From Betaproteobacteria bacterium (GTDB taxonomy: Bacteria > Pseudomonadota > Gammaproteobacteria > Burkholderiales > Casimicrobiaceae), in the NCBI GenBank assembly GCA_013298695.1, contig JAAFIS010000001.1:620001-684000 (forward strand): DNA of 64,000 nt, read 5' to 3'. Each line of letters starts with the position of its first letter. Positions within the stretch are counted from its first letter, which is position 1. Positions 4,265-63,351 of this stretch are shown in pieces. A model generated the notes under the pieces. That model made no database searches, was not told the DNA's origin, and saw nothing but the letters and a program-made list of their open reading frames with translations. The position numbers and the translations under genes were made by a program.

Positions 4265-4292
4265 TCACGTAAACACAAGCCGCTACCGGACA
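4265..4292 (-). promoter_or_regulatory. ECF-type promoter for the lyase gene
   Basis: Read on the minus strand: TGTCCGG, 15 nt, ACGTGA. It is 73 bp before the lyase start codon at 4192 and matches the element found throughout this window. Confidence 0.6.
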
Positions 4293-4400: not shown

Positions 4401-4428
4401 AGTCCTGTTTCTAAGCTGCAACGCGTTA
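4401..4428 (+). promoter_or_regulatory. Weak copy of the ECF-type promoter element
   Basis: AGTCCTG, 15 nt, GCGTTA. It is a weaker match than the copy at 4590, but it is followed nine bases later by the same kind of long hairpin as the other tandem copies, so it may be an older duplicate. Confidence 0.4.
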
Positions 4429-4589: not shown

Positions 4590-4617
4590 TGTCCGGTTTC
4601 GTGAGCGAAATGCGTTA
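4590..4617 (+). promoter_or_regulatory. ECF-type promoter (consensus copy)
   Basis: TGTCCGG, 15 nt, GCGTTA; a perfect copy of the window consensus, 115 bp before the ATG at 4732. Confidence 0.65.
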
Positions 4618-9567: not shown

Positions 9568-9595
9568 TGTCCGGTTTCACGCGGACGCTGCGTTA
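9568..9595 (+). promoter_or_regulatory. ECF-type promoter (consensus copy)
   Basis: TGTCCGG, 15 nt, GCGTTA, 131 bp before the ATG at 9727 of the next propeller gene. Confidence 0.65.
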
Positions 9596-11408: not shown

Positions 11409-11436
11409 TGTCCGGAATTCTTGCCGCAGTGCGTTA
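11409..11436 (+). promoter_or_regulatory. ECF-type promoter (consensus copy)
   Basis: TGTCCGG, 15 nt, GCGTTA, 111 bp before ATG 11548. Confidence 0.65.
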
Positions 11437-13090: not shown

Positions 13091-13118
13091 TGCCCAATTT
13101 AATTGGGCGTCAGCGTTA
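13091..13118 (+). promoter_or_regulatory. Divergent match to the ECF-type promoter
   Basis: TGCCCAA, 15 nt, GCGTTA, ending 22 bp before ATG 13140. The -35 half overlaps the first palindrome of doublet copy B, so the match could be partly fortuitous. Confidence 0.4.
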
Positions 13119-20723: not shown

Positions 20724-20751
20724 TGTCCGGATTGAGTTATCTGGATCGTGT
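20724..20751 (+). promoter_or_regulatory. ECF-type promoter
   Basis: TGTCCGG, 15 nt, TCGTGT; perfect -35 half, weaker -10 half, 42 bp before ATG 20793. Confidence 0.5.
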
Positions 20752-20792
20752 TGAGCCAGTCGCACATAGCGAGAGAGCGCAGGAAATCAAAA

Positions 20793-23291: not shown

Positions 23292-23319
23292 TCACGTATT
23301 GCCGACTAAAAGTCGGACA
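23292..23319 (-). promoter_or_regulatory. ECF-type promoter, minus strand
   Basis: Read on the minus strand: TGTCCGA, 15 nt, ACGTGA, the same -10 variant as before the lyase gene. It points towards the DUF1566 gene at 23044. Confidence 0.45.
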
Positions 23320-23390: not shown

Positions 23391-23418
23391 TGACCGTTTT
23401 TTCTGCCCAATTGCGTTA
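23391..23418 (+). promoter_or_regulatory. ECF-type promoter, plus strand
   Basis: TGACCGT, 15 nt, GCGTTA, 73 bp before ATG 23492. It forms a divergent pair with 23292-23319. Confidence 0.45.
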
Positions 23419-25684: not shown

Positions 25685-25779
25685 AAAAGGTTTCCGCAAC
25701 ACGACGAGTTCATCGTGCTGACTTGGTAGTAGGTGGCGAGTCGCGGCAAATTAGATAGAGCCGCGCCACATCCTTTACT

Positions 25780-25807
25780 TAACGAATCGCTCGTTGTAAA
25801 CCGGACG
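25780..25807 (-). promoter_or_regulatory. ECF-type promoter, minus strand
   Basis: Read on the minus strand: CGTCCGG, 15 nt, TCGTTA. It drives towards the exported protein at 25684 and is divergent from 25861-25888, with 53 bp between the -35 elements. Confidence 0.55.
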
Positions 25808-25860: not shown

Positions 25861-25888
25861 TGTCCTTTTTTGTCCCGAGGTTGCGTTA
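25861..25888 (+). promoter_or_regulatory. ECF-type promoter, plus strand
   Basis: TGTCCTT, 15 nt, GCGTTA, 171 bp before ATG 26060. A perfect 7 bp hairpin (CCGCGTT/AACGCGG, 25903-25918) follows in the leader. Confidence 0.55.
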
Positions 25889-26059
25889 AGTATCCCAAGT
25901 CCCCGCGTTTGAACGCGGAGCATTTATGTGTGCGCCGCCGAAGTCAATCGTAGGGCGTCGCAACGTAATCGTGGCGCGTCGCAGGGGGCTACGCGTGTGC
26001 CGTTCGTAAGACGGTCCACGTTATGCGTCCGGCCGGACAGAAAACCTAGGAAGACACAA

Positions 26060-28980: not shown

Positions 28981-29008
28981 CGTCCGTTTATGTGCCGACG
29001 ATGCGTTA
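28981..29008 (+). promoter_or_regulatory. ECF-type promoter
   Basis: CGTCCGT, 15 nt, GCGTTA, followed by the palindrome AACACGTGTT. The next gene starts at 29305, so the leader would be about 290 nt, unusually long. Confidence 0.5.
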
Positions 29009-36131: not shown

Positions 36132-36159
36132 TGTCCGCTTTCCCGGTTGCAGTACGTTT
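36132..36159 (+). promoter_or_regulatory. ECF-type promoter-like element
   Basis: TGTCCGC, 15 nt, ACGTTT, 109 bp before the acetyltransferase start. It is one of the few copies placed before a cytoplasmic protein. Confidence 0.4.
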
Positions 36160-37999: not shown

Positions 38000-38027
38000 T
38001 GTCCAGTATTCGCTTCATATCGCGTTA
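38000..38027 (+). promoter_or_regulatory. ECF-type promoter
   Basis: TGTCCAG, 15 nt, GCGTTA, 33 bp before ATG 38061. Its place rules out the earlier ATG at 38034 as a likely start. Confidence 0.6.
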
Positions 38028-38060
38028 GATTGCATGAGTCTTTTCGCGATTGAATCCGCT

Positions 38061-39694: not shown

Positions 39695-39722
39695 TGTCCG
39701 TAAACGGCATTCGTACGCGTTA
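39695..39722 (+). promoter_or_regulatory. ECF-type promoter, first of two
   Basis: TGTCCGT, 15 nt, GCGTTA, 166 bp upstream of the second copy at 39861. Confidence 0.55.
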
Positions 39723-39860: not shown

Positions 39861-39888
39861 TGTCCGGATTGCAAATCGCGCTGCGTTA
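39861..39888 (+). promoter_or_regulatory. ECF-type promoter, second of two (consensus copy)
   Basis: TGTCCGG, 15 nt, GCGTTA, 245 bp before ATG 40134. Confidence 0.65.
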
Positions 39889-39975: not shown

Positions 39976-40133
39976 ACCCGCTTATTCGCTTGCAAGAAAA
40001 TCAATATTTTCTGCAGGCACGAGAAATTTGTAGCGTCCTCGTTCGCGTTCACCTCGTCGAGCCTTGTAATCGCTTCAAGCATCATCGTTCTGCTCCCGCA
40101 GATCCAACACCTGGTACAGAACAGAAGGCTTCA

Positions 40134-41918: not shown

Positions 41919-41946
41919 TGTCCGGATCGTTCTTAAAACGACGTTA
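41919..41946 (+). promoter_or_regulatory. ECF-type promoter without an intact target gene
   Basis: TGTCCGG, 15 nt, ACGTTA. It is followed 33 bp later only by a 20-codon open frame, then by the integron-type cassette. Confidence 0.5.
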
Positions 41947-42042: not shown

Positions 42043-42258
42043 AGCTACGCAACCAGGCGTTGCTTCCGCGAAACTCTAAAGTTGAAGCTACTGCTCACTC
42101 AAATCTATTTCTACCAGACACGACTTTATGCTGGCGCCTGCCGTTAATTTGCAATGGTGCGTATACCGCCGACGTGGCAGATTAACGCTCCGGTGCGTGT
42201 TGATCTTACTTTAGCTGCCCGGCGGCGCCCGAAGCCAGCAATTTTTGAAATACAAAAA

Positions 42259-42689
42259 ATGAAGCAGACAAACATAAAAAAATTCATCGTCAGTGGTTCA
42301 ACTGTTGGCACGAGCAACAAGGCAGAAGCGAGCTCATTTGGAAAAACAACCAGCCTCTGGGGGCAGTTCTATTCATCCTGGCCCAACCCAGAAAATCAAG
42401 TCTATGGCGTGTATTCGGATAATGAATCTGACGCAACGGGAGAAGTCACATTTACTACCGGAACAAGGGTAGACACTGAAAATGATTCAAGTGTCAGCAT
42501 TAAATCTGGAACCTATTTGGCTTTTCCAGCAAACGGCCCGATGCCGAAAGCCGTCATTGATGGTTGGAAGGCTGTGTGGGAACACTTTTCACATGGACAG
42601 TCATATGTGCGCGCATATGACACGACTTCGAGGAATACAGCGGGCCGAAGTCCGCAAGAATTTACATTGGCATCAAAGCAAGCGGCTAA
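42259..42689 (+). pseudogene. Cass2/GyrI-like effector-binding protein, frameshifted near the end
   Basis: From ATG 42259 the frame gives SFGKTTSLWGQFYSSW, YGVYSDNESDATGEVTF and GTYLAFPANGPMPKAVIDGWKAVWEHF, the pattern of the integron-cassette Cass2 / AraC-type effector-binding family. At about 42622-42627 one base appears to be missing: the continuous frame runs on into the recombination site (to 42768), while the +1 neighbour frame gives DFEEYSGPKSARIYIGIKASG and a stop at 42687-42689, exactly the family's usual ending. The stop then lies inside the attC R'' box, as in normal cassettes. So the gene is either frameshifted in nature or carries a sequencing error. Confidence 0.82.
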
Positions 42690-42770
42690 CGTGGTGCTCA
42701 ACCTCGCTCCCTTCGGTCGGTGGACGCTGCGCGACAAAGCCGCGCAGCTCCGGTTAGCGCTAAGTTAGGC
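42684..42770 (+). other. Integron attC recombination site
   Basis: R'' GGCTAAC (42684-42690), 5 nt spacer, L'' GCTCAACC (42696-42703), variable stem including GCTGCGCG/CGCGCAGC (42726-42748), L' GGTTAGC (42752-42758), 5 nt spacer, R' GTTAGGC (42764-42770). L'' and L' pair except for one extra C in L'', the extrahelical base that sets strand choice in attC sites. Every canonical part is present at normal spacing. No integrase gene or attI was seen. Confidence 0.85.
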
Positions 42771-47517: not shown

Positions 47518-47545
47518 CAACGATTTTGATTGGCGTGACCGGACA
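47518..47545 (-). promoter_or_regulatory. ECF-type promoter, minus strand
   Basis: Read on the minus strand: TGTCCGG, 15 nt, TCGTTG. It faces the surface-protein gene at 47486 and is divergent from 47629-47656. Confidence 0.6.
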
Positions 47546-47628: not shown

Positions 47629-47656
47629 TGTCCGGGCGGCAACGGTTTCGGCGTTT
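47629..47656 (+). promoter_or_regulatory. ECF-type promoter, plus strand
   Basis: TGTCCGG, 15 nt, GCGTTT, about 105 bp before the preferred start of the hydrolase gene at 47761. Confidence 0.55.
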
Positions 47657-47760
47657 AACTAAATGCTTTGGCAACAGCCAAGATCGTCTCAACCGAGCAG
47701 GCGATTCACGAACCCCATGCGGCTTGCGTCAGGAAGCGCAAATATGAAAAGGAATGCGGC

Positions 47761-48627
47761 TTGCATTTTGAAAATTTCGACCCTGTTACGGTTGCGTCAA
47801 TATCGAATGATTTTTCAGATTTCGGGGAAGGCAGCGTCGTCGTACTCCTCCACAGCTCGCTTTCAACCAAGAGGCAATGGCAATCACTAATAGAACGACT
47901 CGCTGCAAATCATCGCTGTATCGCTTTTGATTTGATGGGGTACGGCAACGCAATGCAGCCGCCGGACGAGTCGCGCTTTTCGCTGGCGGAGGAGGTCTAT
48001 CGAATTCGTGTGCGTCTGGCTGCGCTCGTTTCTCGTGATAGCAGCATTCATGTTGTCGGGCATTCGTACGGCGGCGCTGTGGCCTTGCGCCTAGCGCAAG
48101 AGCTTGCATCCCAAGTACAAAGTCTCACGCTGTTCGAGCCAGTTGCTTTTCACCTGCTCCCTCCTGCGCACGGCGCGGTGTCCATAATTCGTACGGTGGC
48201 GGAATGTATTAGCCGCGAGGTAGGAGATGCGCGGAAAGCGACTAGAGGCTCAATCGAGACGCTCGCTCGCAAGCTGCTTCCTGCGACCCAAATGTTTATC
48301 GATTTCTGGAGTGGGCAAGGGGCGTTTGATCTGCTCGACGCGACGCGCCAATTATCCCTGTCGCTTATGTTGCCTAAGGTTGCGTTGGACTTTCAAGCCC
48401 TTCTCGGAGACCCCGCAAAACTGCCAACTCTTCATGCGTTCCAAGTGCCAACGTGTCTTATTGGTGGACGACTCAGCCCGCGTTGCTCGCACCAGTTGCT
48501 GCACGTTTTGGAGGCGGTTTTGCCGCAGGTAGAGCTACACTGGGTTCCTGCGGGACATTTAGCCCCAATCAACAACTCAATACGCGTAAATCCCATCATT
48601 GAGTCTTTCATCAAGCGAAGCGAATAG
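47761..48627 (+). CDS. Alpha/beta hydrolase
   Basis: I take TTG 47761 (288 residues, AAGGA upstream); the frame is open to TTG 47668, which would be almost leaderless from the promoter at 47629-47656. VVLLHSS is the oxyanion region, GHSYGG holds the nucleophile Ser, and GGRLSPRCS and AGHLAP give the likely acid and His positions. It resembles the epoxide-hydrolase/haloalkane-type hydrolases; no signal peptide. Substrate unknown. Confidence 0.82.
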   Translation: MHFENFDPVTVASISNDFSDFGEGSVVVLLHSSLSTKRQWQSLIERLAANHRCIAFDLMGYGNAMQPPDESRFSLAEEVYRIRVRLAALVSRDSSIHVVGHSYGGAVALRLAQELASQVQSLTLFEPVAFHLLPPAHGAVSIIRTVAECISREVGDARKATRGSIETLARKLLPATQMFIDFWSGQGAFDLLDATRQLSLSLMLPKVALDFQALLGDPAKLPTLHAFQVPTCLIGGRLSPRCSHQLLHVLEAVLPQVELHWVPAGHLAPINNSIRVNPIIESFIKRSE

Positions 48628-48767: not shown

Positions 48768-48795
48768 TGTCCGACCACCATCTCGCGGTGCGTTA
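48768..48795 (+). promoter_or_regulatory. ECF-type promoter-like element, no clear target
   Basis: TGTCCGA, 15 nt, GCGTTA. The next recognisable gene starts at 49358. It may be an orphan left by gene loss. Confidence 0.4.
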
Positions 48796-50646: not shown

Positions 50647-51579
50647 TTATTCGGGGGTCTTGTAACTTGTGATGTGCGCCATCACGCACTTCCAGCGACC
50701 GTCCGCTTGCTTATGCCAGATGTCGGTATAGCGACTGATGCCTTTCTTGCCGTCTTTGAGCTCATAGAGATTTTCCGCATGAATAAGCGCGACATCATCA
50801 AAGCGTCGAATCACCGACACTTTCACTGGGAATGATTTCATGCTCGTCGCGAACACCGGCTTTGCGAAATTCTCCAATGCCTTCGCGCGATCATTGAACG
50901 TGCCGTCGCCGCCAACGACAACGTAGTCGTCGGTGAGATGCGCGTCGTACCAAGACACATCCGTTTCGCGAAAAGAACGTACATAGTTTTCGTTGAGTTC
51001 ACGCAACACATCGGCATCGTCGCCCACGGGATCAGCGCCCTGCCATCGCGTGAATGCTGGCGTCGTGCCGCGATGTAGATACTTCGACACGCCTTCGCGC
51101 AGCGGCGTATTCTGCGCAGCAACCAGCGCCCACTTCGCGCCGTTCCAGTAATACACATCGGTGTAGCGAACGCGTCGCACGGCGCGCTCGCTACCTTGAA
51201 TGATCGTCGCCTCAAACAAGCCATGAATTAGCGCAACATTGCCAAACAAACGAATGCGCACGTCTTCGTATGACAGTCCATCGGTAACCGTCGCTTTCTT
51301 CATCAAAGACAAATGTTGCGCTCGATCTATCCAGTCGCCACCGTTGCCGATCATGAAAAAATCGTTTGCAGTGAGTGCTTCAATGAAATCGAAATCAGCG
51401 ACCGCAAACGCGTTCACGAAACGATGATTGATCGCGCGCAGTTGGGCTTCGGCGATTGCGGGGGCAGGCACTGGCGCCGCCGAGACTTCGTTTGCGACCA
51501 TCGCAAGCACGAGTGGCGTGAAAGTGAAAAGCATGTTTATTCTCCGACCGAACATATTGACCTCATTTGTTTGTTTCAA
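50647..51579 (-). CDS. Exported protein with two SnoaL/DUF4440-like domains
   Basis: 310 residues. The signal peptide ends NEVSAAPV. Two NTF2-fold (SnoaL/DUF4440) domains follow: about 40-165 (INHRFVNAFAVADFDFIEALTANDFFMI ... YTDVYYWNGAKWALVAAQNT) and 190-305 (LNENYVRSFRETDVSWYDAHLTDDYVVV ... YTDIWHKQADGRWKCVMAHIT). The two halves align with each other, so an internal duplication is clear. Ligand or activity unknown; periplasmic. Confidence 0.87.
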   Translation of the reverse strand: MKQTNEVNMFGRRINMLFTFTPLVLAMVANEVSAAPVPAPAIAEAQLRAINHRFVNAFAVADFDFIEALTANDFFMIGNGGDWIDRAQHLSLMKKATVTDGLSYEDVRIRLFGNVALIHGLFEATIIQGSERAVRRVRYTDVYYWNGAKWALVAAQNTPLREGVSKYLHRGTTPAFTRWQGADPVGDDADVLRELNENYVRSFRETDVSWYDAHLTDDYVVVGGDGTFNDRAKALENFAKPVFATSMKSFPVKVSVIRRFDDVALIHAENLYELKDGKKGISRYTDIWHKQADGRWKCVMAHITSYKTPE

Positions 51580-52121
51580 GAGCTAGCTCGCGTGCTGTAA
51601 GCCATATCGGTAGAAAAAACCGCTTTCCGAAATTTCTTGTCAGTAGCGCGTAGCGTCGCGTTTCGACGCCGATCCTAAGCGCCCGAGCTTGGGTTGCCGG
51701 GCATCGCTAAGAACAGCAAACATAAAAAACAGCGTCGCAGGTAAATGTCAATGGTGGCTGACCGGTGCTGTGAACGCAAGATCAAGCCAGCGCTTGATGC
51801 GCCGAAAAAACGACGAAACTTGCTGATCGAACTGTTGTGTGCAAGTTTCAATTACCCGATTAATCAGTCAGATTCTGCTGGCACCTTTGCTGGGAGTACC
51901 TACATCAGCAAACTAACGCAAATCAGCCGTGGTTTCGGACAGATCCGTCTCCGTTCGCACTTTTTGGGTCAAACTCTTTTGACCGTCACCATTGCAGTTG
52001 GGCATAGGAGTTGGTTCGGGTTTGGGGCTTCGGCACATGCCGCGTACAGCACAGCTAACGAGGCCCGTCGAGAAATGTCCGACCCGTTGCTTAGCTAAAT
52101 CGCGAAAAATCAAGAAGCCAG
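51580..52121. other. Intergenic, no gene recognised
   Basis: About 540 bp. A 117-residue open frame (51745-52098) has no recognisable domain and no ribosome site. Nothing else was seen. Confidence 0.4.
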
Positions 52122-52149
52122 TGTCCGGATTTACCCCATATCCTCGTTA
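52122..52149 (+). promoter_or_regulatory. ECF-type promoter
   Basis: TGTCCGG, 15 nt, TCGTTA, 178 bp before ATG 52327. A GGTTAGCCCAAGTTGGCTATC inverted segment follows at about 52174-52194. Confidence 0.45.
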
Positions 52150-52326
52150 TCAGCATTAGTTGAACGGCGTTTCCTTCGGTTAGCCCAAGTTGGCTATCGG
52201 TTCAAACCAAAATTGACGTGTGCAATTTGAACGCGTCGCGCCGGCGTGTTACCCGCCTCGAGCGCGCAGGGAAACAGCCGCGCCAAAATAAAGCGGCCGA
52301 AGCCCGGTTTTTTCGGAGAATTTTTC

Positions 52327-52839
52327 ATGGGCTACCTAAGCACGCTTGCGAGATACAAAGAGTGGGCAGATGAAGTTTTTTTACACACAGTGAGTAGGCT
52401 GCCTGCCGCGGAATTAACGGCGCCGCGTCCGATTTTGTTTGGCAGCCTTATCCGTACGCTAAATCATTCCTACGCAATGGACTATGTGTGGCAGTCTCAT
52501 TTGCTTGGAAAACATCACGGCCTTACGTCTCGAAATCCCGAAAACTGTCCAGACATCGGAGATCTCGCAGATGCCCAGCGAACAATTGACCGTTGGTACG
52601 TTGATTATGTTGGCTCTCTCTCGGAGAAAAGTTTTGACGAGGTTGTCACCTTTGAGTTTATAGGCGGCGGCACTGGATCCATGACTCGGAGCGACATTTT
52701 GCTCCACGTCGTTAACCACACTACATATCACCGCGGTCATGCAGCCGACATTCTTTACAGCATCAACGTCTTTCCACCCGCCACTGACTTTCCCGTTTTT
52801 CTCCGAGAAACGCGGAAGCTGCAACACGCGATCACGTAG
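52327..52839 (+). CDS. DinB-family protein
   Basis: 170 residues from ATG 52327, with GGAG upstream; the open frame extends to 52246 without support. YLSTLARYKEWADEVFLHTV, LIRTLNHSYAMDYVWQSHLLG and LLHVVNHTTYHRGHAADIL give the metal-binding His residues of the DinB/YfiT four-helix fold (His in NHSY and in HTTYHRGH). Such proteins are often thiol transferases or hydrolases of unknown substrate. GTTAGGC overlaps its stop codon and the next gene starts 12 bp later. Confidence 0.9.
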   Translation: MGYLSTLARYKEWADEVFLHTVSRLPAAELTAPRPILFGSLIRTLNHSYAMDYVWQSHLLGKHHGLTSRNPENCPDIGDLADAQRTIDRWYVDYVGSLSEKSFDEVVTFEFIGGGTGSMTRSDILLHVVNHTTYHRGHAADILYSINVFPPATDFPVFLRETRKLQHAIT

Positions 52840-52850
52840 TTAGGCGTCAG

Positions 52851-53432
52851 ATGAAACCTGCACTCCCTTCCGCGCTCTTGGAGTTTCGCGAAGTCAATGC
52901 TGAGTCTTGGTCGGACTTCGAAAGGCTGTTCGAATCGGTGGGCGGACCGAAGTACTGTTGGTGCATGGCTTGGCGAAAGACCTCAGAAGAGGCGAAGTGC
53001 ACGGACCGAGCTAGTCTGAAACGTGCAATTCAAGGCCGTGTCATGAACGGCACTCCCGTGGGGATTCTGGGGTACCTAAAAGGGGAGCCCGTGGCATGGT
53101 GCTCCGTGGCGCCGCGAAGCACTCACCACCGCCTAGTCTCGGACGCGTCGATCGATGATGGAGTCTGGTCGATCACGTGTTTTTTCGTTACCCGCAAGCT
53201 TCGTGGCTTAGCGATCATCAAACAGCTGCTGGCATTTGCAACCTCTCACGCGACCAGACGCGGAGCAAAAGTTGTGGAGTCATACCCCGTGGATACAGAC
53301 TCGCCTAGCTACAGATTCATGGGCTTCGTGCCAATGTTTGCGGAAGCGGGCTTTGCGCACGTCGGTCAAGAGGGTAAACGTCGCAAGGTAATGCGGCTTG
53401 CAGTCCACGGACAGCATGAACGCGATGCATAA
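52851..53432 (+). CDS. GNAT-family N-acetyltransferase
   Basis: 193 residues. GGPKYCWCMAWRKT near the N-terminus is a mark of one GNAT subgroup, followed by SITCFFVTRKLRGLAIIKQLLAFA, the acetyl-CoA loop region, and YRFMGFVPM. Cytoplasmic. It begins 11 bp after the DinB stop codon, so the two form a transcription unit. Acceptor unknown. Confidence 0.85.
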   Translation: MKPALPSALLEFREVNAESWSDFERLFESVGGPKYCWCMAWRKTSEEAKCTDRASLKRAIQGRVMNGTPVGILGYLKGEPVAWCSVAPRSTHHRLVSDASIDDGVWSITCFFVTRKLRGLAIIKQLLAFATSHATRRGAKVVESYPVDTDSPSYRFMGFVPMFAEAGFAHVGQEGKRRKVMRLAVHGQHERDA

Positions 53433-53531
53433 GTCCTTGCTCCTGTCAGACTCGCTCCGGTAGCCGCTCATGTCAAACGTTCACGTACTACGCCTCACTC
53501 GCGAACCCTACATTGTCACCGTCAGAAAATC

Positions 53532-54047
53532 ATGTCAACAATATTTATTGCGCCCGCAGTTGAGTTATTCGATACCCGCCTTTCAACGCTACAAAATCTG
53601 CTGCGCGCTGGCGAAACGTACTTTTCGGAAAACGAGCACAAATACCTAAACAGGCGCTTAGCGCCCGACATGCTGCCGCTTGGAACTCAAGTAGCGTTCA
53701 CCTGCAATCAGCCGCGTAATTTTGCGCTCTGGCTCAACGGCAGCTCTGCTAGCGATATCGATCCGAACATCGAATCGCTCCGACAGGCGATGCACTGCAT
53801 CCAGGAGACGAGAGACGCGCTTGGCAAACTCGGGGGTTCCGGCAGAGAGGCACCCAAACACAAGTATCTCGAGTTGGGCTCAGAATCGCACGCAGAGCTC
53901 ACAGGATTTCAATACCTCAATGATTTTTTGATTCCGAACTTCTATTTTCATCTGGTCACGAGTTACGCAATATTGCGAATGTCCGGCGTGCCCATTGGTA
54001 AGCGCGACTACATGCTTCACCTGATTCCACATGTGAAGCAGCGATGA
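53532..54047 (+). CDS. DUF1993 family protein
   Basis: 171 residues. NRRLAPDMLPLGTQVAF and FLIPNFYFHLVTSYAILRMSGVPIGKRDY are the conserved segments of DUF1993, a helical family with distant similarity to the DinB fold. No signal peptide. Function unknown. It sits in a run of small plus-strand accessory genes. Confidence 0.9.
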   Translation: MSTIFIAPAVELFDTRLSTLQNLLRAGETYFSENEHKYLNRRLAPDMLPLGTQVAFTCNQPRNFALWLNGSSASDIDPNIESLRQAMHCIQETRDALGKLGGSGREAPKHKYLELGSESHAELTGFQYLNDFLIPNFYFHLVTSYAILRMSGVPIGKRDYMLHLIPHVKQR

Positions 54048-54103
54048 GCTTAGCGAGCAACCCAACCGGCGCCGACTCGATTGATCCCACTGTTTAGCGA
54101 ACT

Positions 54104-54520
54104 ATGAATAAATCAAATTTACTTGCGAAGAGAATTTTCTTTTGGTCTGCCGTTTACGGGATCGTGGTGCTGTTTCCGCTGTATTTTCTGGAGGCGTCGC
54201 TTGGTCAAGCGTTCCCTCCTGCTGGCAACAAACCCGAGCAATACTACGGTTTCATAGGTGTAGCGCTCGCTTGGCAACTCGCTTTTTTCATCATATCCAG
54301 CGATGTACATCGCTATCGCAAGCTGATACTACCGGCGATAGCTGAGAAATTTTTGTCGGCGGGTGCGGTCATTGTTCTGTATTTCCTTGATCGCGTTGCG
54401 TTAGAAACGCTCGCTCCTTCGATCATTGATTTAGTGATCGGAGGCTTATTCGTGCTCGCCTACCGACACTCCGCACCTGGCCTAGACCAAGCAACAAATA
54501 GCCCCCAAAATGACGCCTAA
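54104..54520 (+). CDS. Small integral membrane protein
   Basis: 138 residues with four predicted membrane segments (about 12-30, 45-66, 78-97, 105-122) and a polar tail. I recognise no family; the size and layout are like DoxX-neighbour or 'hypothetical membrane' cassette proteins. Its stop codon lies inside GCCTAAC, the form of an attC R'' box, but no matching half follows. Confidence 0.7.
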   Translation: MNKSNLLAKRIFFWSAVYGIVVLFPLYFLEASLGQAFPPAGNKPEQYYGFIGVALAWQLAFFIISSDVHRYRKLILPAIAEKFLSAGAVIVLYFLDRVALETLAPSIIDLVIGGLFVLAYRHSAPGLDQATNSPQNDA

Positions 54521-54652
54521 CTCTTCTCAAAATCAACGCTCATGGCGACCAATGCAACGCCGTTTTTTTCTTCGGTGCGCGGGGCCACTGCATCCGCGTA
54601 GGATCAGGGTGCAGCCTATACGTTGTGCTTCGCTGAAGCTAGGGAGTCTCCA

Positions 54653-55051
54653 TTGAACGCTTTGTCAATTCTTGTTGCTGGGTTCGCATACTTCGCTCTC
54701 GGAGGGCTTTGGTTTTCGCCGCTTTTTGGGAAGCAGTGGGATAGATCGATTGGCTTTTCACGCCCTCCGAGGTGGCGTCCCGCAGTGATTTATTACGTCG
54801 GTCCACTTGTGGGTTGTCTGGTTGCCTCTGGTGTTACCTCGTATCTTTTGCATTTGACGCGCGCGCAGTCGTTTACTGATTTCCTGAGCGTAGGGCTTTC
54901 AGTAGGAATCGGCTACGGTGCAACCATTACGTCTGTGAATGCGATCGCGCCAAACATGACCAAACCCGCGCTCTATGCCAGCGTTGTTGGGTCGTACCAT
55001 TTGGTGGGTCTCGCGTTGTGTTCCTGTGTTTTGTACTGGTTAGCTGTTTAA
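54653..55051 (+). CDS. DUF1761 family membrane protein
   Basis: 132 residues from TTG 54653, with AGGGAG upstream; the GTG at 54623 gives a polar extension. LVAGFAYFALGGLWFSPLFGKQWDRSIGF is the DUF1761 signature, followed by three further membrane helices. Function unknown. Confidence 0.85.
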   Translation: MNALSILVAGFAYFALGGLWFSPLFGKQWDRSIGFSRPPRWRPAVIYYVGPLVGCLVASGVTSYLLHLTRAQSFTDFLSVGLSVGIGYGATITSVNAIAPNMTKPALYASVVGSYHLVGLALCSCVLYWLAV

Positions 55052-55270
55052 TTCAACCCTATGCAAAAGCGAGCACGCCTCGCGTCTATCTTGTCAACAA
55101 TGAAGTTTTCAATGCCTGTTGAAAGCGATGATGTGGTTTGTTGCGCTTGAGCCTTCGAACCTGACTCGCATAAAGTAAACCATTTGCTTTTTGTTCCGAT
55201 AGGGATTGCCATCCACTGTTGGGTAGTTCGAGCAATACGCGCCGCGCAAGCCAACACCTCAGGAGCTTAT

Positions 55271-55774
55271 ATGAAGAGAAAAATAGTAGTCTGCGAGATA
55301 TCGGTTCAGGACGAATCAGCATTTTTGTCCGCGGCAAAAGCCAGCCGAAAACTCCATCACAATTGGGTCACTCCGCCTGTTACGCGCGCTGCATTCCGAG
55401 TCAGATTGAAGCGAATGCAAGCCCCGGAGAACAAGGCCTACTGTGTACGACGCACGGACGATGGGGCGCTAGTGGGCTACATTGAAATCACACAGATTGT
55501 TCGCGGGCCGTTACGTAGTGCGTATCTGAGCTACTACGCGTTTGCTGGCTATACGCGACAAGGATTAATGCGCGAGGGGCTCGAAAAAGTAGTTCGGTTA
55601 GCCTTCACTAAGCTCAAATTGCACCGACTCGAAGCAAACATCCAGCCAGAAAACCTGGCGTCAATCGCACTCGTTAGGGCCTGTTCGTTTGAAAAAGAAG
55701 GCTACTCTCCGCGATATTTAAAAATTCGTGGTCGTTGGCGTGACCATGAACGCTGGGCAGTACGTGCGACGTAA
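55271..55774 (+). CDS. RimJ/RimL-type GNAT acetyltransferase
   Basis: 167 residues from ATG 55271, with AGGAG five bases upstream; the open frame extends to 55184 but is not supported. YLSYYAFAGYTRQGLMREGLEKVV, LKLHRLEANIQPENLASIALVRAC and FEKEGYSPRYLKIRGRWRDHERWAV are the hallmark segments of the ribosomal-protein-alanine acetyltransferase type. It may modify a protein N-terminus or a small amine; the target is unknown. Confidence 0.9.
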   Translation: MKRKIVVCEISVQDESAFLSAAKASRKLHHNWVTPPVTRAAFRVRLKRMQAPENKAYCVRRTDDGALVGYIEITQIVRGPLRSAYLSYYAFAGYTRQGLMREGLEKVVRLAFTKLKLHRLEANIQPENLASIALVRACSFEKEGYSPRYLKIRGRWRDHERWAVRAT

Positions 55775-56370
55775 GAGAGAAATCTCGCGCATTTATCAGG
55801 TGAACAGAACGGCTACTCACCGCGAAAAAGTGTACGAGACTGGTGATCGCCGCTTTGAAATGAAGTAGGGTTGCGCAGCAGTTCACGCGTTCGGTAGTAA
55901 TCGCGTCCGCCTACATTCCGACGCGGGCGTCCCAACTAGTTATTTTTGCGAACCGCATGATGAAAAGGCATAACTGTTGTTCGCGGCCACTTTTTTTTCG
56001 ATCAATGCCCGCTACGCGAGTCTACGCACTTACCGGAGTCTTACCGGCTACCCGCTACACCTACCACTACGCCTCAAGTGGTCATTGAGGTAAGAAGTAC
56101 GAGCTGTCGGCAACAGGAAGGAGCGGAACACGCGTGTAGCTAGGCAGGCTGTGGCAAGAAATCGCAGATCGCGCTCATTTCGCGCTTGTGTTTAGGTGTC
56201 ATAATTAGTGAGTCGTATGAAACGTTGACAGCGCTGACTTCAGGACAAATATCTTGAGTTTTCGTCAAAATCGTCGACGCGTTTGAACTCTATAGATCAC
56301 CTTACCTCCGCAAAAACTCTCAAGAGTTGAGCAGTACTTGTTGCGTTTTGAGGGGGCGAACAAAGTCGCT
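55775..56370. other. Intergenic upstream of the sigma factor
   Basis: About 600 bp with no recognisable gene. I searched it for the ECF-type element with 15 nt spacing and found none, so the sigma gene itself seems to use another promoter. Confidence 0.5.
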
Positions 56371-56925
56371 ATGCCACAAGTCACTACGCTGCTGCAGCGC
56401 TTACGTGGAAATGATCGATCTGCGATCGACGAACTTTTTACGTTGCTCTACGATGACCTCAGGCGTATCGCAAGGTCTCGTCTCGCCGCCAACGGTCGTC
56501 AGACGCTGCTAGACACCTCTCTGCTGGTGCACGAGGCATATCTAAAATTTGTGAACGTTGGACAACTTAATCTCAATGATCGCGAGCATTTTCTCGCGTA
56601 CGCTGCGTCTACGCTGCGCTCAGTTGTGGTGGATTTCGTTCGCAAGCGCGGTGCGGAGCAACGCGGCGGCGACGTAGATCATGTGACTTTGAACACTGAG
56701 GTCGCTCAATCTGTGGGCGCGTGCGACGACGAAATTCTCGCTGTTCACGAAGCGCTCACCGTCCTGGCGCAGATCGATCCTCGCCTAGTAAAGGTAGTCG
56801 AGATGCGCTACTTCGCGGGACTCAGCGAAGTTGAAATTGCTGCTGCTCTCGGAGTAAGCGAGCGGACAGTGCGACGGGACTGGGAAAGATCACGTTTACT
56901 GCTCGCAGATATTCTCAGCACCTAG
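56371..56925 (+). CDS. ECF sigma factor, TIGR02999 / Sigma70_ECF (PF07638) type
   Basis: 184 residues from ATG 56371 (TTG 56338 would add 11). Region 2 spans about 10-95: ELFTLLYDDLRRIARSRL, LVHEAYLKFV and VVVDFVRKRGAEQRGG are typical of this ECF subgroup, which is often encoded next to Ser/Thr kinases. Region 4 is at about 130-180, with the helix-turn-helix LSEVEIAAALGVSERTVRRDW. It directs RNA polymerase to alternative promoters. No anti-sigma gene is adjacent; the kinase gene follows 141 bp downstream and has its own ECF-type promoter. It is the best candidate reader of the TGTCCGG-N15-GCGTTA elements. Confidence 0.92.
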   Translation: MPQVTTLLQRLRGNDRSAIDELFTLLYDDLRRIARSRLAANGRQTLLDTSLLVHEAYLKFVNVGQLNLNDREHFLAYAASTLRSVVVDFVRKRGAEQRGGDVDHVTLNTEVAQSVGACDDEILAVHEALTVLAQIDPRLVKVVEMRYFAGLSEVEIAAALGVSERTVRRDWERSRLLLADILST

Positions 56926-57003
56926 AGGGCGAGCCGCCGGTGGCGTAGTCAACGCGCCGATTGATCGCGTTGGTGTATGTTTTTTGCGATTTATCAGTAG
57001 GCG

Positions 57004-57031
57004 AGTCCGGTCGTTGGCGCCTTTTGCGTTA
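57004..57031 (+). promoter_or_regulatory. ECF-type promoter of the kinase gene
   Basis: AGTCCGG, 15 nt, GCGTTA, 35 bp before ATG 57067. It is the copy that connects the window-wide element to the sigma/kinase locus. Confidence 0.6.
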
Positions 57032-57066
57032 CACGCACAATATAGATCGAAAAGCGCATCGTAATC

Positions 57067-60033
57067 ATGTCAACAAAAACAGCTGGGTTCGACGTTGAGC
57101 GCTGGCAGCGGCTTAACGCGTTGTTAGAGCAGGGGTTGTCGATAGATGCGGAAGAACGCACTACTTGGCTTGACCACTTACCGCCGGAAAGCCGCGACTT
57201 GGCGGACAAACTCCGCGGAATGTTGTTGCAAAAGGGAATTGAAACCAAAGAGTTTCTGGCGCAACCGGTTGCGTTGCAGCAAATCGTGCAGAAGGGTGCC
57301 CAAGCCGCAGACGCCGCAGGCGCGAATGTTGGCCCCTACCGGCTCATCGCCGAGCTTGGCTCCGGCGGTATGGGTACGGTTTGGCTCGCCGAACGCAATG
57401 ACGACACCATCAAACGACAAGTCGCGCTAAAGCTACCGATATCACATTGGATACCAGGGCTTGCCGAACGAATGGACCGAGAGCGCGACATGCTCGCGGC
57501 CCTTGAGCACCCGAATATTGCAAGGCTATACGATGCTGGCGTAACCGAAACAGGACGCCCTTACCTCGCGCTCGAGTATGTGGAGGGTGAATCTATCGAT
57601 AGCTACTGCCAAACTCACAGACTACCGGTTCGACAACGACTAGAGCTCTTTCTCCAAGTCACCAACGCGGTAGCGCACGCCCACGCCCGACTTATCGTGC
57701 ACCGTGATCTGAAACCGAACAACATCTTGGTAACCAAAAATGGAGAAGTACGGCTCCTCGACTTCGGCGTCGGCAAGTTAATCGAGGACGAAAGTAAAGC
57801 GAGCAATCGTGAAGCCATTGACGACACGCCACGTTCGGCAGATTCCGGCACAGCAAACACCTCGCTCACTCGGATCACAGGAAGAGCAATCACGCTTGAC
57901 TACGCCTCACCAGAGCAAATCCGTTCTGAACGGATAACGGTCGCAAGCGATGTTTACTCGCTAGGAGTCGTGTTGTTTGAGCTACTGACGGGGCAGCGCC
58001 CTTACAAACTTAAGCGCAATACGGCCGGTGCGGTTGAAGATGCAATAGAAGCGCAAGACGCACCGGCAGCAAGCAGCGTTGCCGAAAAACCTGTGGCGAG
58101 AGTGCTACGCGGCGATGTTGATGTGATTTTGGCGAAAGCAATGAAAAAGGAGACTGGTGAGCGCTACGCCAGCGTCGAAGCGTTTGCTGCCGACGTCAAA
58201 CACTTTCTTAAAGGCGAGCCGGTCGTTGCGCAGAGAGATAGCGCGATCTATCGTGCGAGGAAGTTTGTCAGTCGAAACATTGGTGGAGTTATCGGTGGCG
58301 TTGTAGTTTTCTTGGCGATAACCGCCGGCACTTCGATTGCACTTTGGCAGGCGCATGTAGCGAAAGCTGAGACTGCGCGCGCGACGCAAGTTAAACAGTT
58401 CATCGCGTCGCTGTTCACCAGCGCTGTGCCTCGAACAGGCGAGGGAGGGCAGGTACTAGCCAGCGACCTTCTCACGAGCGCCGCGGATCGGATTGAAAAA
58501 GAGCTTGTTGATCAGCCCGAAATTGCTGCCGAACTTGGCTCGATCGTTAGCGAGAGTTTTATCAAATTGGGTGTTCCCGAGAAAAGTGAGCGAATACTAG
58601 AATTTGTGTTGTCTAAATCAACGTTGTATCTTGAACCACGAAACCGCATAACGTTGAGTGCTAAGCGAAATCTTGCGAGCGTGTTACGAGCCAGAGATCC
58701 AAAACGTGCAGAGGCTCTTTTGGACGACCTCATGCCAGACGCGGCTGCGATGTTGCCATCAACCGCAGAGGACTTGGCACAAGCGCATATGCAAAAAGCT
58801 TACCTCGCTGCGAGGCGAGCCGACGAAACGAGTGCTGTCGAAAATATTCAACGTGCCGTTGATCTTGCCGAACAATACTTCGGTAAAGAAAGCCCTCAGG
58901 CGATTCAATATCTCGGGAACTTATCAAACATTTACGGCGTGTTTAGTCGCCGCGCACCTCAGCTGCAAGCGGCGGCAACCGCTTATACAAAGGCTATCAA
59001 CACTATGGAGGGGTCGAGACCCAACGATGACCTGATTAATGCCGAGACAATGTATGCGAATGCCCTAGTAGCAAACGATCGCGCTGCAGAGGCAATTCCT
59101 CTCCTGCGGCGCGTTGTCGAAGATCGGCTCAACCTAGACACGTTGGAAACCCATAGGGTACGAAATGCACGCAGCTCGCTCGCAAACGCGTTGCTAACTA
59201 GCGGGTACCTTGACGAGGGCATTGCTCTGGCGCGAAAAGTTGTTGCGGACGAGCTCGCAGCAAACAAGGTTGACAGTACCGACCGGATACTGCTGGGTAA
59301 TCAACTTGTGCGCGGTCTCGTTGTGGCCAAATTGCTCGACGACGCGGCCACCGAAGTCGCTCGGATCAGCGGCGTGGCGGGTCAATTGAGTGAGTTAACC
59401 AATCTCATCCGCGATGTGCGTCTGGCCCGCCTGTTTTTCTTGCGGAGCGACGTTATGTCCGCTGAAACCACTCTCGACCAAATTGCTGACACGTTGAACA
59501 AATACCCGGCAGAAAATATCGCAGCGTTAGTAGTCAGGGCTGAAGGTGCTCGCCTTCAAAACGACTTTGTAACTTCGAAGGTTCGCCTTGACGCCGCGCT
59601 GGCCGCTCTTAACAGTGTCCCTATTAGCCTTTTAACCCAGGCAAACTTGTCTACTGAAATGGGCAGATACTTTCTCAGCCGCGGCTCTTTTGACCAAGCC
59701 GCGGATCACCTCAATCGCTGCAGAAGCATTTATGATCGATTGCAGCCCAGCGTTTCCACTTTGGCTGCTGACTGCTATGTAGGATTGGCTCAGCTTCATC
59801 TCAAGGCAAAAGAACCTGCTATCGCAATGCGTTTGCTTTCGCCCGTGGTAGATGCTTGGAGTCGCGTAAATCCTGGCAACGCGTGGCACGGCGAAGCGCT
59901 CTACTGGTTATCGCGCACGCAAGCGCAACTAGGGCAAACTGTCTCAGCGGATGCCAATTTTGCGCGCGCCCAGGCTATGCTGAAGAGGTCAACGTTGCCT
60001 GCGATGCGGGAGCTGTCGCGAGCAAAGCGATAG
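57067..60033 (+). CDS. Membrane-anchored Ser/Thr protein kinase with TPR sensor region
   Basis: 988 residues. The kinase domain (about 90-382) has all main motifs: Gly loop GSGGMG (98-103), VALK with Lys122, HRDLKPNN (212-219), DFG (232-234) and ASPEQ (280-284). One membrane helix (about 405-427) is followed by about 560 residues of helical repeats of TPR type, presumably on the periplasmic side. This is the usual partner of TIGR02999-type ECF sigma factors. In related systems the kinase phosphorylates the sigma factor, which has no anti-sigma partner; that is inference here. The gene has its own ECF-type promoter, which suggests positive feedback. Confidence 0.95.
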   Translation: MSTKTAGFDVERWQRLNALLEQGLSIDAEERTTWLDHLPPESRDLADKLRGMLLQKGIETKEFLAQPVALQQIVQKGAQAADAAGANVGPYRLIAELGSGGMGTVWLAERNDDTIKRQVALKLPISHWIPGLAERMDRERDMLAALEHPNIARLYDAGVTETGRPYLALEYVEGESIDSYCQTHRLPVRQRLELFLQVTNAVAHAHARLIVHRDLKPNNILVTKNGEVRLLDFGVGKLIEDESKASNREAIDDTPRSADSGTANTSLTRITGRAITLDYASPEQIRSERITVASDVYSLGVVLFELLTGQRPYKLKRNTAGAVEDAIEAQDAPAASSVAEKPVARVLRGDVDVILAKAMKKETGERYASVEAFAADVKHFLKGEPVVAQRDSAIYRARKFVSRNIGGVIGGVVVFLAITAGTSIALWQAHVAKAETARATQVKQFIASLFTSAVPRTGEGGQVLASDLLTSAADRIEKELVDQPEIAAELGSIVSESFIKLGVPEKSERILEFVLSKSTLYLEPRNRITLSAKRNLASVLRARDPKRAEALLDDLMPDAAAMLPSTAEDLAQAHMQKAYLAARRADETSAVENIQRAVDLAEQYFGKESPQAIQYLGNLSNIYGVFSRRAPQLQAAATAYTKAINTMEGSRPNDDLINAETMYANALVANDRAAEAIPLLRRVVEDRLNLDTLETHRVRNARSSLANALLTSGYLDEGIALARKVVADELAANKVDSTDRILLGNQLVRGLVVAKLLDDAATEVARISGVAGQLSELTNLIRDVRLARLFFLRSDVMSAETTLDQIADTLNKYPAENIAALVVRAEGARLQNDFVTSKVRLDAALAALNSVPISLLTQANLSTEMGRYFLSRGSFDQAADHLNRCRSIYDRLQPSVSTLAADCYVGLAQLHLKAKEPAIAMRLLSPVVDAWSRVNPGNAWHGEALYWLSRTQAQLGQTVSADANFARAQAMLKRSTLPAMRELSRAKR

Positions 60034-60227: not shown

Positions 60228-60255
60228 TGTCCGGATCAAAGCCGCCGCCGCGTGG
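60228..60255 (+). promoter_or_regulatory. Possible ECF-type promoter
   Basis: TGTCCGG, 15 nt, GCGTGG; perfect -35 half, weak -10 half, 90 bp before ATG 60346. Confidence 0.35.
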
Positions 60256-60345
60256 AACAAGTTATGAGGATTTTTTTGCCATTGAAGCAATGGCAGGTGA
60301 ATCTTTTCCTGGTTTGATTCTTTGGAGCCTACTTTGAACACCACT

Positions 60346-61305
60346 ATGCCAAATAGCCCCGCCAACATGGCTGAGGCACGTTCACAATCCTTCGAACAGG
60401 GCGCGCAAGCAGCTCTCCGGCCCCTAAGGCGCGACGTCGGACGATTTCGCGAATCAAGACGATTGAAAGTCCTGCGCGCGACGTTTGGGGTGCTCTCGAG
60501 AACACTGCCCGGCGTCGCCGCGAAGCTCGCGTATCGTGCCCTCGCCACTCCGCCTCGCGTTGCAGAGCGTCCATGGCAAGCGCAACTGCGTGAAACCGCC
60601 ACAAAGATACAGCTACCTTTTGGCGCGGGACATCTTGCCGTTTATGAATGGGGGTTGGGGCCAACCGTGCTGATGGTGCACGGCTGGGGTGCGCGTGCTA
60701 CGCACATGGGCAAGATGATTCCGCCGTTGGTTGCAGCCGGTTATCGTGTCGTATCTTTTGATGCGCCCGCGCATGGTGATTCATCTGGTAAACGCACAGA
60801 GCCTGTGGAATTTGCAGCTGCCGTCAATGCCGTCGCCCAGCATGCAGGACACGTTCACGTGGCGATCACCCATTCTTTTGGCGCAGCAGGCGCGTTGCTC
60901 GCGCACCGTGATTGGCGCCACGTCGCCGACCACTTCGTTTTGGTGAGTCCCATTGTGAGCTGTATGTGGTTCACTGAAATGTTCCGCGAGTATGCTGGAG
61001 TAAGCGCGCAGGTAATGGCGAACGCGCGCCAGATGGTGGTCGATCACTACAGCGGTAGATTTTTGTGGGAACGGATGTCGGTGGTGGAGTTGCTACGAAG
61101 CGCACGACGCCCCACGTTGGTCATTCACGATACTCATGACGTTGAAATCCCGTTTGCGCACAGCACAGCGGTATTGGATGCCGGTTCTCACGTTGAGCGG
61201 TTTGCAACCCATGAGCTCGGGCATCACCGCTTGTTGGGCGATCCACGCGTCATTGACCGCGTAGTGAAGTTTGTTAGGGAGAGCTCGCACCGGTTCATCG
61301 GCTGA
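60346..61305 (+). CDS. Alpha/beta hydrolase
   Basis: About 319 residues from ATG 60346 (TTG 60322 and ATG 60367 are alternatives; none has a strong ribosome site). VLMVHGWGARATHMGKMIPPLVAAGYRVVSFDAPAHGDSSG is the oxyanion and strand region. The nucleophile is probably Ser in THSFGA, in place of the usual GxSxG; the acid is in DTHDVEIPF and the His in LGHHRLLG. It resembles the YqiA/RsbQ-like hydrolases with a helical N-terminal extension. Substrate unknown. Confidence 0.83.
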   Translation: MPNSPANMAEARSQSFEQGAQAALRPLRRDVGRFRESRRLKVLRATFGVLSRTLPGVAAKLAYRALATPPRVAERPWQAQLRETATKIQLPFGAGHLAVYEWGLGPTVLMVHGWGARATHMGKMIPPLVAAGYRVVSFDAPAHGDSSGKRTEPVEFAAAVNAVAQHAGHVHVAITHSFGAAGALLAHRDWRHVADHFVLVSPIVSCMWFTEMFREYAGVSAQVMANARQMVVDHYSGRFLWERMSVVELLRSARRPTLVIHDTHDVEIPFAHSTAVLDAGSHVERFATHELGHHRLLGDPRVIDRVVKFVRESSHRFIG

Positions 61306-63323: not shown

Positions 63324-63351
63324 TGTCCGCTTTTCGCGCCAAATCGCGTTT
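63324..63351 (+). promoter_or_regulatory. ECF-type promoter
   Basis: TGTCCGC, 15 nt, GCGTTT, 30 bp before CTG 63382 and 90 bp before ATG 63442. Confidence 0.55.

Follow-up and report, generated by a model that had tools for sequence, protein, structure and literature searches.

A putative kinase-switched ECF43-like sigma factor circuit with promoter-like elements on its kinase gene and across the surrounding island in a Casimicrobiaceae genome

In the 64,000-nucleotide stretch of contig JAAFIS010000001.1 analysed here (the window), the genes of an ECF sigma factor and a Hanks-type kinase lie side by side among a locally confined set of ECF-type promoter-like elements, one of which precedes the kinase gene itself. 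The chance that the pair belongs with EcfK-PknS and EcfP-PknT, as an ECF sigma circuit switched by phosphorylation and serving a large local regulon, we put at roughly four in five. Its wiring appears to be local and self-amplifying, in a type of signalling circuit that is known but little-studied.

The sigma factor and kinase genes

The pair and the stretch between its two genes comprise the following features:

56371..56925 (+): ECF sigma factor, TIGR02999 / PF07638, ECF43-like, from profile matches
56954..56976 (+): weak terminator-like stem-loop between the sigma and kinase genes, from a stem-loop scan
57004..57031 (+): ECF-type promoter-like element of the kinase gene, AGTC-N19-CGTTA, 35 bp to the ATG
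57067..60033 (+): Hanks-type Ser/Thr receptor kinase, from domain matches and a motif check

The sigma factor scores 174.3 bits against TIGR02999 (Sig-70_X6), over the curated cut-off of 126.15, and matches PF07638 at 2e-43; together with the kinase domain match, this bears out the TIGR02999 sigma/Hanks kinase pair proposed in the preliminary description. With phmmer, no solved structure related to the sigma factor was matched at E 0.01. Its sigma2.2 region reads DTSL at residues 48-51, without the acidic DAED motif, and the phospho-acceptor position is taken by Ser50. In an alignment of 60 sigma factors, this position holds Thr in 55 proteins, Pro in two, Glu in two and Ser only in that of the window. 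Among the ECF43 hallmarks, the kinase neighbour and the absence of DAED are found here and the Thr at the acceptor position is not; as Ser50 stands in its place, we call the protein ECF43-like rather than ECF43. A kinase gene lies within 800 bp of all 10 TIGR02999 sigma genes of the genome and of 52 of the 60 in the whole set.

The kinase consists of an N-terminal extension, a kinase domain (residues 91-368), one transmembrane helix, seen as a hydrophobic segment at about 408-426, and a C-terminal TPR region (TPR_12, 5.2e-16). Its catalytic motifs GSGGMG, HRDLKPNN, DFG and SPE, at 98, 212, 232 and 281, are intact, so that catalytic motifs, extension, helix and TPRs, by which we recognise the PknS type, are all present. 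The match to the PknS structure 9EED begins at residue 11 (phmmer, E 4.5e-41).

As had been described, the sigma gene lies directly upstream of the kinase gene, with 141 bp between its end (56925) and the kinase ATG (57067). Within this gap, the element at 57004-57031 (+) reads AGTCCGGTCGTTGGCGCCTTTTGCGTTA, that is, AGTCCGG-N15-GCGTTA followed by 35 bases and the ATG, just as first reported. The further claim that the same element precedes the exported-protein genes holds for the core, GTCCGG-N15-GCGTTA, which is shared with the site at 9568-9595, but not for the first base, which is A at the kinase gene and T in the TGTCCGG...GCGTTA of that site. The exact A-first pattern was rejected as the regulon element: it has a single copy in the genome, and T is usual at this base.

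No matrix match of at least 9 bits occurs on the + strand from 52122 to 57004, and therefore no site precedes the sigma gene; a sigma-70 promoter was sought near this gene and not found. An RNA family search of the sigma-kinase intergenic stretch gave no match. The stem-loop at 56954-56976 is considered weak because three such structures occur in 55750-57100, where 1.7 are expected.

Promoter-like sites across the island and the genes behind them

Besides the kinase-gene element, the following sites were recorded in the window (PWM, matrix score):

4265..4292 (-): promoter-like site before 1589-4192; PWM 15.3
4401..4428 (+): promoter-like site 256 bp before 4684-6999; PWM 21.4
4590..4617 (+): promoter-like site before 4684-6999; exact core motif, PWM 27.8
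9568..9595 (+): promoter-like site before 9688-11256 (delta-60/DUF5122 propeller; PF17164); exact core motif
11409..11436 (+): promoter-like site before 11548-13071 (delta-60/DUF5122); exact core motif
13091..13118 (+): weak site before 13140-16058 (delta-60/DUF5122); PWM 14.1
20724..20751 (+): weak site at the start of 20748-22340 (delta-60/DUF5122); PWM 13.1
23292..23319 (-): weak site 248 bp before 22544-23044 (Lcl_C); PWM 13.8
23391..23418 (+): promoter-like site before 23492-24649 (Lcl_C); PWM 23.0
25780..25807 (-): promoter-like site before 24827-25702 (291 aa, exported); PWM 23.0
25861..25888 (+): promoter-like site before 25928-28729 (TonB-dependent receptor); PWM 24.2
28981..29008 (+): promoter-like site 297 bp before 29305-30933 (delta-60/DUF5122); PWM 22.3
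36132..36159 (+): site before 36268-36858 (GNAT acetyltransferase, no signal peptide seen); PWM 16.5
38000..38027 (+): promoter-like site before 38034-39662 (choice-of-anchor Q protein); PWM 21.9
39695..39722 (+): upstream of two sites before 39990-41843 (delta-60/DUF5122); PWM 21.6
39861..39888 (+): promoter-like site before 39990-41843 (delta-60/DUF5122); exact core motif, PWM 27.0
41919..41946 (+): promoter-like site 208 bp before 42154-42768 (Cass2/GyrI-like, no signal peptide seen); PWM 18.9
47518..47545 (-): promoter-like site before 45873-47486 (choice-of-anchor Q protein); PWM 16.1
47629..47656 (+): site before 47668-48627 (alpha/beta hydrolase, no signal peptide seen); PWM 14.2
48768..48795 (+): site without a gene start of the ORF set within 350 bp; PWM 19.4
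51914..51941 (-): site 335 bp before 50647-51579 (SnoaL/DUF4440, signal-peptide-like); PWM 21.0
52122..52149 (+): promoter-like site before 52246-52839 (DinB family, no signal peptide seen); PWM 23.8
60228..60255 (+): weak site before 60322-61305 (alpha/beta hydrolase); PWM 13.5
63324..63351 (+): promoter-like site before the ORF from 63442; PWM 18.1

The site at 51914-51941 falls inside a probably spurious ORF. The ORF from 63442 (509 aa) continues beyond the window end, and its start resembles, by eye, those of the choice-of-anchor Q proteins.

The confinement of the motif is marked. GTCCGG-N15-GCGTTA occurs exactly six times in the 4.08 Mb genome, each time within C1:624-689 kb, a region of 65 kb or 1.6% of the genome, and 16 of its 27 matches with at most one mismatch fall there as well (binomial probabilities of about 2e-11 and 2e-22, respectively). 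The reversed control pattern has 33 matches genome-wide at the same tolerance, more than the motif itself, and none of them lies in this region; consequently, it is the clustering that is unusual and not the total. With up to two mismatches, the window holds 25 motif matches against 6.4 expected, a number reached by 0 of 100 shuffles. The matrix scan found 29 sites in the 70 kb island (19 of them its own training set) versus two in 54 kb of flanks, while the reversed matrix gave one and zero. Chance as the source of the motif is ruled out by the shuffles, the genome clustering, the matrix scan and the reversed control, and the last three also substantiate the earlier claim of an ECF-type promoter set centred on the sigma/kinase pair.

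The layout of the sites is that of ECF-type promoters, with two boxes, CGT in the -10 and a fixed spacing. Before island genes, TG[TG]C-N(k)-CGT peaks at k=19, with 18 occurrences versus 0-7 at the other spacers from 13 to 26, and at other ECF43-like loci it occurs 60 times at k=19 versus 12-25 elsewhere. At positions outside the search pattern, the 19 aligned sites have T before GTCC in 15 cases and, in the three bases that follow the -35 box, T in 11 cases each. It could be argued that the element is the operator of an ordinary transcription factor, as two boxes at a fixed gap fit many operators too. The boxes are asymmetric, however, and not inverted repeats, 26 of the 29 island sites are intergenic with a same-strand gene start within 350 bp, the 19-base spacing is preserved in distant sigma-kinase loci, and CGT in the -10 is typical of ECF promoters according to the available text of PMC8103513; we regard an operator as very improbable. 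Still less credible is an origin of the motif in the duplication of upstream DNA along with tandemly arrayed paralogues. The delta-60 genes are indeed tandem paralogues, some of whose upstream regions may share ancestry, but the site alignment largely refutes this origin, as it is mainly the boxes that match while spacers and flanks differ, and sites are also found before unrelated genes, those of the TonB receptor, DinB, the kinase and Lcl_C.

A signal-peptide-like start was found, by a heuristic, in 15 of the 21 window genes behind sites, and six, the kinase included, lack one; several targets look cytoplasmic. The preliminary description had taken the targets for secreted binding proteins and lyases, which is too narrow, and the lyases are unproven. 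A Pfam search of 1589-4192 (867 aa, exported) and 4684-6999 (771 aa, exported) found no family, and the former has a marginal heparinase III match (E 0.075).

Delta-60 clusters are strongly associated with TIGR02999 sigma genes in this genome, where seven of the 14 lie within 12 kb of one. The corresponding figures are two of four in genome G007 and one of 12 in G005, where the link is absent; for these comparisons, two scans scored 150 candidates in G000 and G005 and another scored eight sigma candidates per genome, and since eight-candidate scoring recovered seven of 10 in G000, the sigma lists of G005 and G007 are probably incomplete. Literature searches on the delta-60 link, and on TIGR02999 with 'sigma factor', returned nothing. 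The locus also offers a handle on the delta-60 repeat proteins.

Relatives and the other sigma factors of the genome

Among 64 family genomes, no close orthologue of the pair was found (best sigma factor 57% identical, best kinase matches 38-52%), and footprinting therefore relies on distant relatives. We considered the family loci whose sigma and kinase genes are at least 85 bp apart (gapped loci; 11 including the window). TG[TG]C-N19-CGT precedes the kinase gene in 8 of the 11, versus 0-2 at other spacers, on which basis feedback on the kinase gene appears to be widely conserved in the family. With A allowed in the -35 box, the count is nine of 11, now including the window, a value reached by 0 of 1000 shuffles and contrasting with 0 of 11 on the reverse strand; the [TG] and A alternatives were admitted post hoc, with the sequences known, which affects the spacer comparison less. 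The element is absent before the kinase in the gapped loci L166 and L171. Kinase-first loci have it in four of eight cases at k=19 and in none at other spacers, and in tight sigma-kinase operons k=19 does not stand out, with 4 of 27 and as many at k=16.

The feedback element that had been proposed for the kinase gene is supported as a promoter-like element. The suggested search for the same motif before kinase genes of relatives had a mixed outcome, as the layout recurs in 8 of the 10 gapped loci other than the window but the exact-sequence regulon is not shared. A regulon of exact sequence common to the relatives was rejected, since only this genome among the 64 has more than two exact core copies; among 399 genomes of the order, T-form copies number five in this one and 0-2 in the others. 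Exact matches of the reversed control reach seven in one relative (G021) of the 64. Outside the family, three gapped loci were found: L205 has TGGCCGG-N16-CGTAT before the kinase, in a gap that is open in two frames and may be coding, and L202 and L217 lack the element, their gaps being about 480-520 bp long and perhaps containing a further gene.

The sites could also be real ECF promoters read by, or shared with, another ECF sigma factor, the pair at 56371-60033 being merely a target. The genome encodes 10 TIGR02999 sigma factors above the cut-off, plus four weaker matches, and the presence of the kinase gene among the targets does not make its neighbour the reader. Additionally, promoter flavour follows overall sigma divergence only among close relatives: once pairs more than 75% identical were removed, 535 of 5000 permutations reached the observed correlation. 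Against this explanation, which we judge unlikely, the sites cluster around the window sigma factor, the same layout often recurs in relatives between the sigma gene and the kinase gene of a pair, and the island motif is absent from the intergenic places of the nine other ECF43-like loci, one of which, at C1:169 kb, has its own version, TGTCGGT-N16-CGTCT, at its kinase and two neighbours.

A broader and tentative reading, which we hold to be somewhat doubtful as a whole, is that several surface-signalling modules, each insulated and self-amplifying, operate side by side in bacteria of this family and form an orthogonal promoter code within one genome. Each module would comprise one ECF43-like sigma factor and one periplasm-sensing TPR kinase, and its own TGTC-N19-CGT variant would precede the kinase gene as well as exported genes nearby, often those of delta-60 propellers. 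The kinase might sense these exported propellers or their ligands.

The proposed circuit and known systems

In the circuit that we favour, with the window sigma factor as the probable reader of the elements, the absence of DAED would keep this protein inactive until it is phosphorylated by the neighbouring membrane kinase, with Ser50 as the candidate site. The TPR domain of the kinase would face the periplasm. Active sigma factor would then bring RNA polymerase to TGTCCGG-N16-CGTTA promoters across about 70 kb, mainly those of exported delta-60 propellers, choice-of-anchor Q proteins, Lcl_C proteins and the TonB receptor, but also those of some apparently cytoplasmic enzymes. As the element would drive the kinase gene and not the sigma gene, each activation would yield more activator, that is, positive feedback on the sensor.

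The circuit had been called little-studied, which is correct in that few experimental cases exist, but the type has already been characterised in EcfK-PknS and EcfP-PknT (available text of PMC13147305 and PMC8999054). In the literature available in part, the target promoters and feedback wiring of kinase-activated sigma factors are hardly described. What the locus adds is a promoter-like sequence in explicit form, some 25 window sites as a candidate regulon, and a conserved feedback that acts on the kinase gene instead of the sigma gene; the paralogues of the pair within the genome would allow orthogonality to be tested.

EcfK-PknS of Xanthomonas citri (ECF43) likewise consists of an adjacent sigma factor and Hanks receptor kinase, and PknS has the same N-terminal extension, kinase domain, transmembrane helix and C-terminal TPRs (PMC13147305, as far as available); members of ECF43 lack DAED (PMC8999054, in the text at hand), as does the window sigma factor. 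EcfK-PknS, too, lies among its targets, inside the T6SS cluster that it controls (accessible part of PMC6653060). The two systems differ in that the window sigma factor has Ser at the T51-type position and in their targets, which are delta-60 propellers and others here and not a T6SS. A further difference is the promoter-like element that precedes the kinase gene in the window locus, as described here; 'autoregulat' is absent from the text of the EcfK paper (PMC13147305).

EcfP-PknT of Vibrio parahaemolyticus (ECF43) has STTA for DAED, and its sigma factor is inactive until the neighbouring kinase phosphorylates a Thr (PMC8999054, available sections). The window sigma factor shares the absence of DAED and the adjoining kinase gene but has Ser instead of Thr; the output of EcfP-PknT is polymyxin resistance, and the same sections present no local promoter array comparable to that of the window. 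Finally, Ser is the proposed phospho-acceptor in the STPK-linked ECF59 and former ECF60 (PMC8103513, in part), and DAED-like motifs are described for STPK-linked groups other than ECF43 (PMC8999054, in part). The window sigma factor thus resembles ECF59 and former ECF60 in its Ser at the acceptor position, but it belongs to another group, as indicated by its TIGR02999 score of 174.3 bits.

Clustering of a promoter-like element around the sigma-kinase pair

The coordinates in the preliminary description proved to be correct, and they place a promoter-like element upstream of the kinase gene:

56371-56925, ECF sigma factor gene
57004-57031, AGTCCGG-N15-GCGTTA, with 35 bases between its end and the kinase ATG
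57067-60033, kinase gene

It had also been claimed that the same element occurs at 9568-9595, which holds for the core, GTCCGG-N15-GCGTTA, but not for the first base (A before the kinase, T at 9568-9595). There are six exact copies of this core in the 4.08 Mb genome, all of them within kb 624.6 to 688.6 of contig C1; with up to one mismatch, 16 of 27 genome-wide matches fall inside the same 65 kb. Because a backwards control pattern gives 33 matches genome-wide at this tolerance and none in the motif-rich 65 kb, it is the clustering that stands out, the total being ordinary. With up to two mismatches, the window contains 25 matches versus 6.4 expected. Past the window end, an exact copy (C1:688595-688622) lies 65 bp upstream of an ORF of 147 aa, which is followed by type IV pilus-like genes (by eye, their starts resemble those of prepilins).

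A matrix built from 19 aligned sites detects, at a threshold of 13 bits, 29 sites in the 70 kb island versus 2 in 54 kb of flanks, while the reversed matrix yields one and none, respectively. Since 19 of these 29 sites had served to build the matrix, counting the pattern across the genome is a cleaner test. The island sites are mostly intergenic, with a gene start at most 350 bp ahead on the same strand (26/29). Bases outside the searched pattern are also conserved: T precedes GTCC in 15 of the 19 aligned sites, and T is present in 11 of the 19 at each of three bases following the -35 box and in 11 before the -10 box.

Elements at related loci and promoter specificity

It had been proposed to look for the motif before kinase genes of relatives, and a looser form of it, TG[TG]C-N19-CGT, was found before many of them. 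We compared 60 TIGR02999-type sigma genes: 10 from the window's genome, 48 listed matches from 21 other family genomes and two additional ones from the stretches that carry those matches. A kinase gene lies within 800 bp of 52 of them, and several of the remaining eight are on short contigs. In 11 loci, window included, sigma and kinase are co-directional and separated by 85 bp or more; TG[TG]C-N(k)-CGT, where k is the spacer between the -35 and -10 boxes, precedes the kinase in eight of these at k=19 versus 0-2 at other k (13-26). The window's element has A in place of the first T; when A is allowed, the count at k=19 rises to 9/11, compared with 0/11 on the reverse strand and a mean of 0.57 (maximum 6, 0/1000 reaching 9) in dinucleotide shuffles. 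Only L166 and L171 have no such element before the kinase. Some of these loci are kin (sigma identity of 80% for L151/L162 and 74-79% for L166/L169/L172) and, therefore, represent about eight independent lineages.

Where the kinase gene comes first, the element occurs in 4/8 loci at k=19 and in none at other k; in opposed pairs, it precedes the kinase in 1/6 and the sigma gene in 2/6. Tight sigma-kinase operons give no k=19 signal (4/27 at k=19, 4/27 at k=16). When every ECF43-like locus except the window is counted, 60 sites precede genes at k=19 versus 12-25 at other k (13-26), and the nine paralogous loci of the window's genome contribute 14 versus 1-8 at other spacers.

In those nine loci (9.7-18 kb each), the window's motif was not found outside genes, the two matrix hits of at least 13 bits being both within genes. 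The C1:169 kb locus carries instead TGTCGGT-N16-CGTCT upstream of its kinase and two more genes, with one site overlapping the start of the longest ORF. One promoter variant is common to at least two genes in seven loci at k=19 versus 0-2 at other spacers (14-24). In this count, the window's share benefits from a length of 70 kb, and some of the sites or ORFs at L049 and L144 are doubtful. The idea that each sigma factor has one private variant is attractive. Across 21 loci, sigma identity and promoter variant are correlated (17/5000 permutations), but not significantly so once pairs more than 75% identical are removed (535/5000); consequently, the idea is only partly supported.

Two further arrangements were observed. 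At L049, a paralogous locus on contig C4, TGTCTGA-N16-CGTA elements at three neighbouring genes (2436-4985, minus strand) differ from the site upstream of the kinase. Additionally, a TGTCCGTTTT-N-GCGTTC element (L155:1711, L156:7297, L157:1433; L155 and L156 are near-duplicates) lies 33-36 bp upstream of the gene for a protein of 452-453 aa, whose start looks exported and which may resemble an RCC1-type propeller; the stretch in question also carries another ECF43-like sigma-kinase pair.

Candidate targets

Directly downstream of the window's sites are genes for delta-60/DUF5122 propellers, Lcl_C proteins, a TonB-dependent receptor, choice-of-anchor Q proteins and some exported proteins without a family. 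By our own simple heuristic, 15 of 21 window genes behind sites (ORF crossing the window end excluded) have a signal-peptide-like start; the other six encode a GNAT enzyme, a Cass2/GyrI-like protein, two alpha/beta hydrolases, a DinB protein and the kinase. The suggestion that the targets include lyases was not established: a Pfam search with the products of 1589-4192 and 4684-6999 returned no family, and the former had a single marginal heparinase III match (E 0.075). Propeller genes stand in tandem at 7712-22340 with similar starts, only some having their own promoter-like site; several (e.g., 7712, 16210, 17673) have none at 13 bits.

Among the TIGR02608 matches listed, the window's genome has 14 delta-60 clusters, 7 of them at most 12 kb from an ECF43-like sigma gene (binomial 6e-6), and 7 of its 10 sigma genes have a cluster within that distance. 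The window's main cluster, 15-49 kb from its sigma gene, is outside those seven. Among the matches listed for two relatives, the proportions are 2/4 (G007) and 1/12 (G005); thus, the association is strong in the window's genome, and its generality beyond it is not shown. In the literature searched, we found no link between delta-60 proteins and sigma factors.

The proposed loop and known sigma-kinase pairs

The window's sigma factor matches TIGR02999 with 174.3 bits, above the cut-off of 126.15, and PF07638 at 2e-43. All ten sigma factors above the TIGR02999 cut-off in its genome have a kinase gene at most 800 bp away. The kinase retains intact catalytic motifs and, as previously described, is a TPR-bearing membrane protein, with one strong hydrophobic segment (approximately residues 408-426) and a TPR match C-terminal to it. 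Its closest solved relative is 9EED (alignment starting at residue 11), the structure of Xanthomonas citri PknS, whose layout, in the accessible part of the report, is the same (PMC13147305).

A weak terminator-like stem separates the sigma and kinase genes, the promoter-like element lies upstream of the latter, and the matrix scan found no promoter match upstream of the former. In the proposed loop, a signal would activate the kinase, which would phosphorylate the sigma factor, and this would then transcribe the local regulon, extra kinase included. No promoter motif was found in the ECF43/TIGR02999 literature searched, but the ECF reclassification and the 2018 EcfK studies may contain one, so the motif described here may not be new. 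The available portions of that literature were not found to describe feedback on the kinase gene.

The type of circuit is already known. According to the accessible sections of two reports, ECF43 sigma factors have a sigma2.2 region without the acidic DAED motif, the neighbouring kinase supplies the missing negative charge by phosphorylating a Thr there, and a further regulatory Thr is located in the linker of EcfK (PMC8999054, PMC13147305). The linker of the window's sigma factor contains Thr106 and Thr109, positions at which 41 and 49, respectively, of the 60 sigma factors compared have Thr. At the phospho-acceptor position, these 60 have Thr in 55, Glu in 2, Pro in 2 and Ser in one. Glu, a natural phosphomimic, occurs in L151 and L162 (relatives G015 and G019), where the sigma factors may be constitutively active, judging by this residue; their kinase genes are still present and preceded by a promoter-like element. 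Pro occurs in L051 (C1:914 kb of the window's genome) and L134, where activation must therefore differ. The single Ser is that of the window, whose sigma2.2 reads DTSL; as this departs from the ECF43 rule, we call the protein ECF43-like. Ser is a possible phosphorylation substrate, and the consulted part of one study proposes it as the acceptor in ECF59 (PMC8103513).
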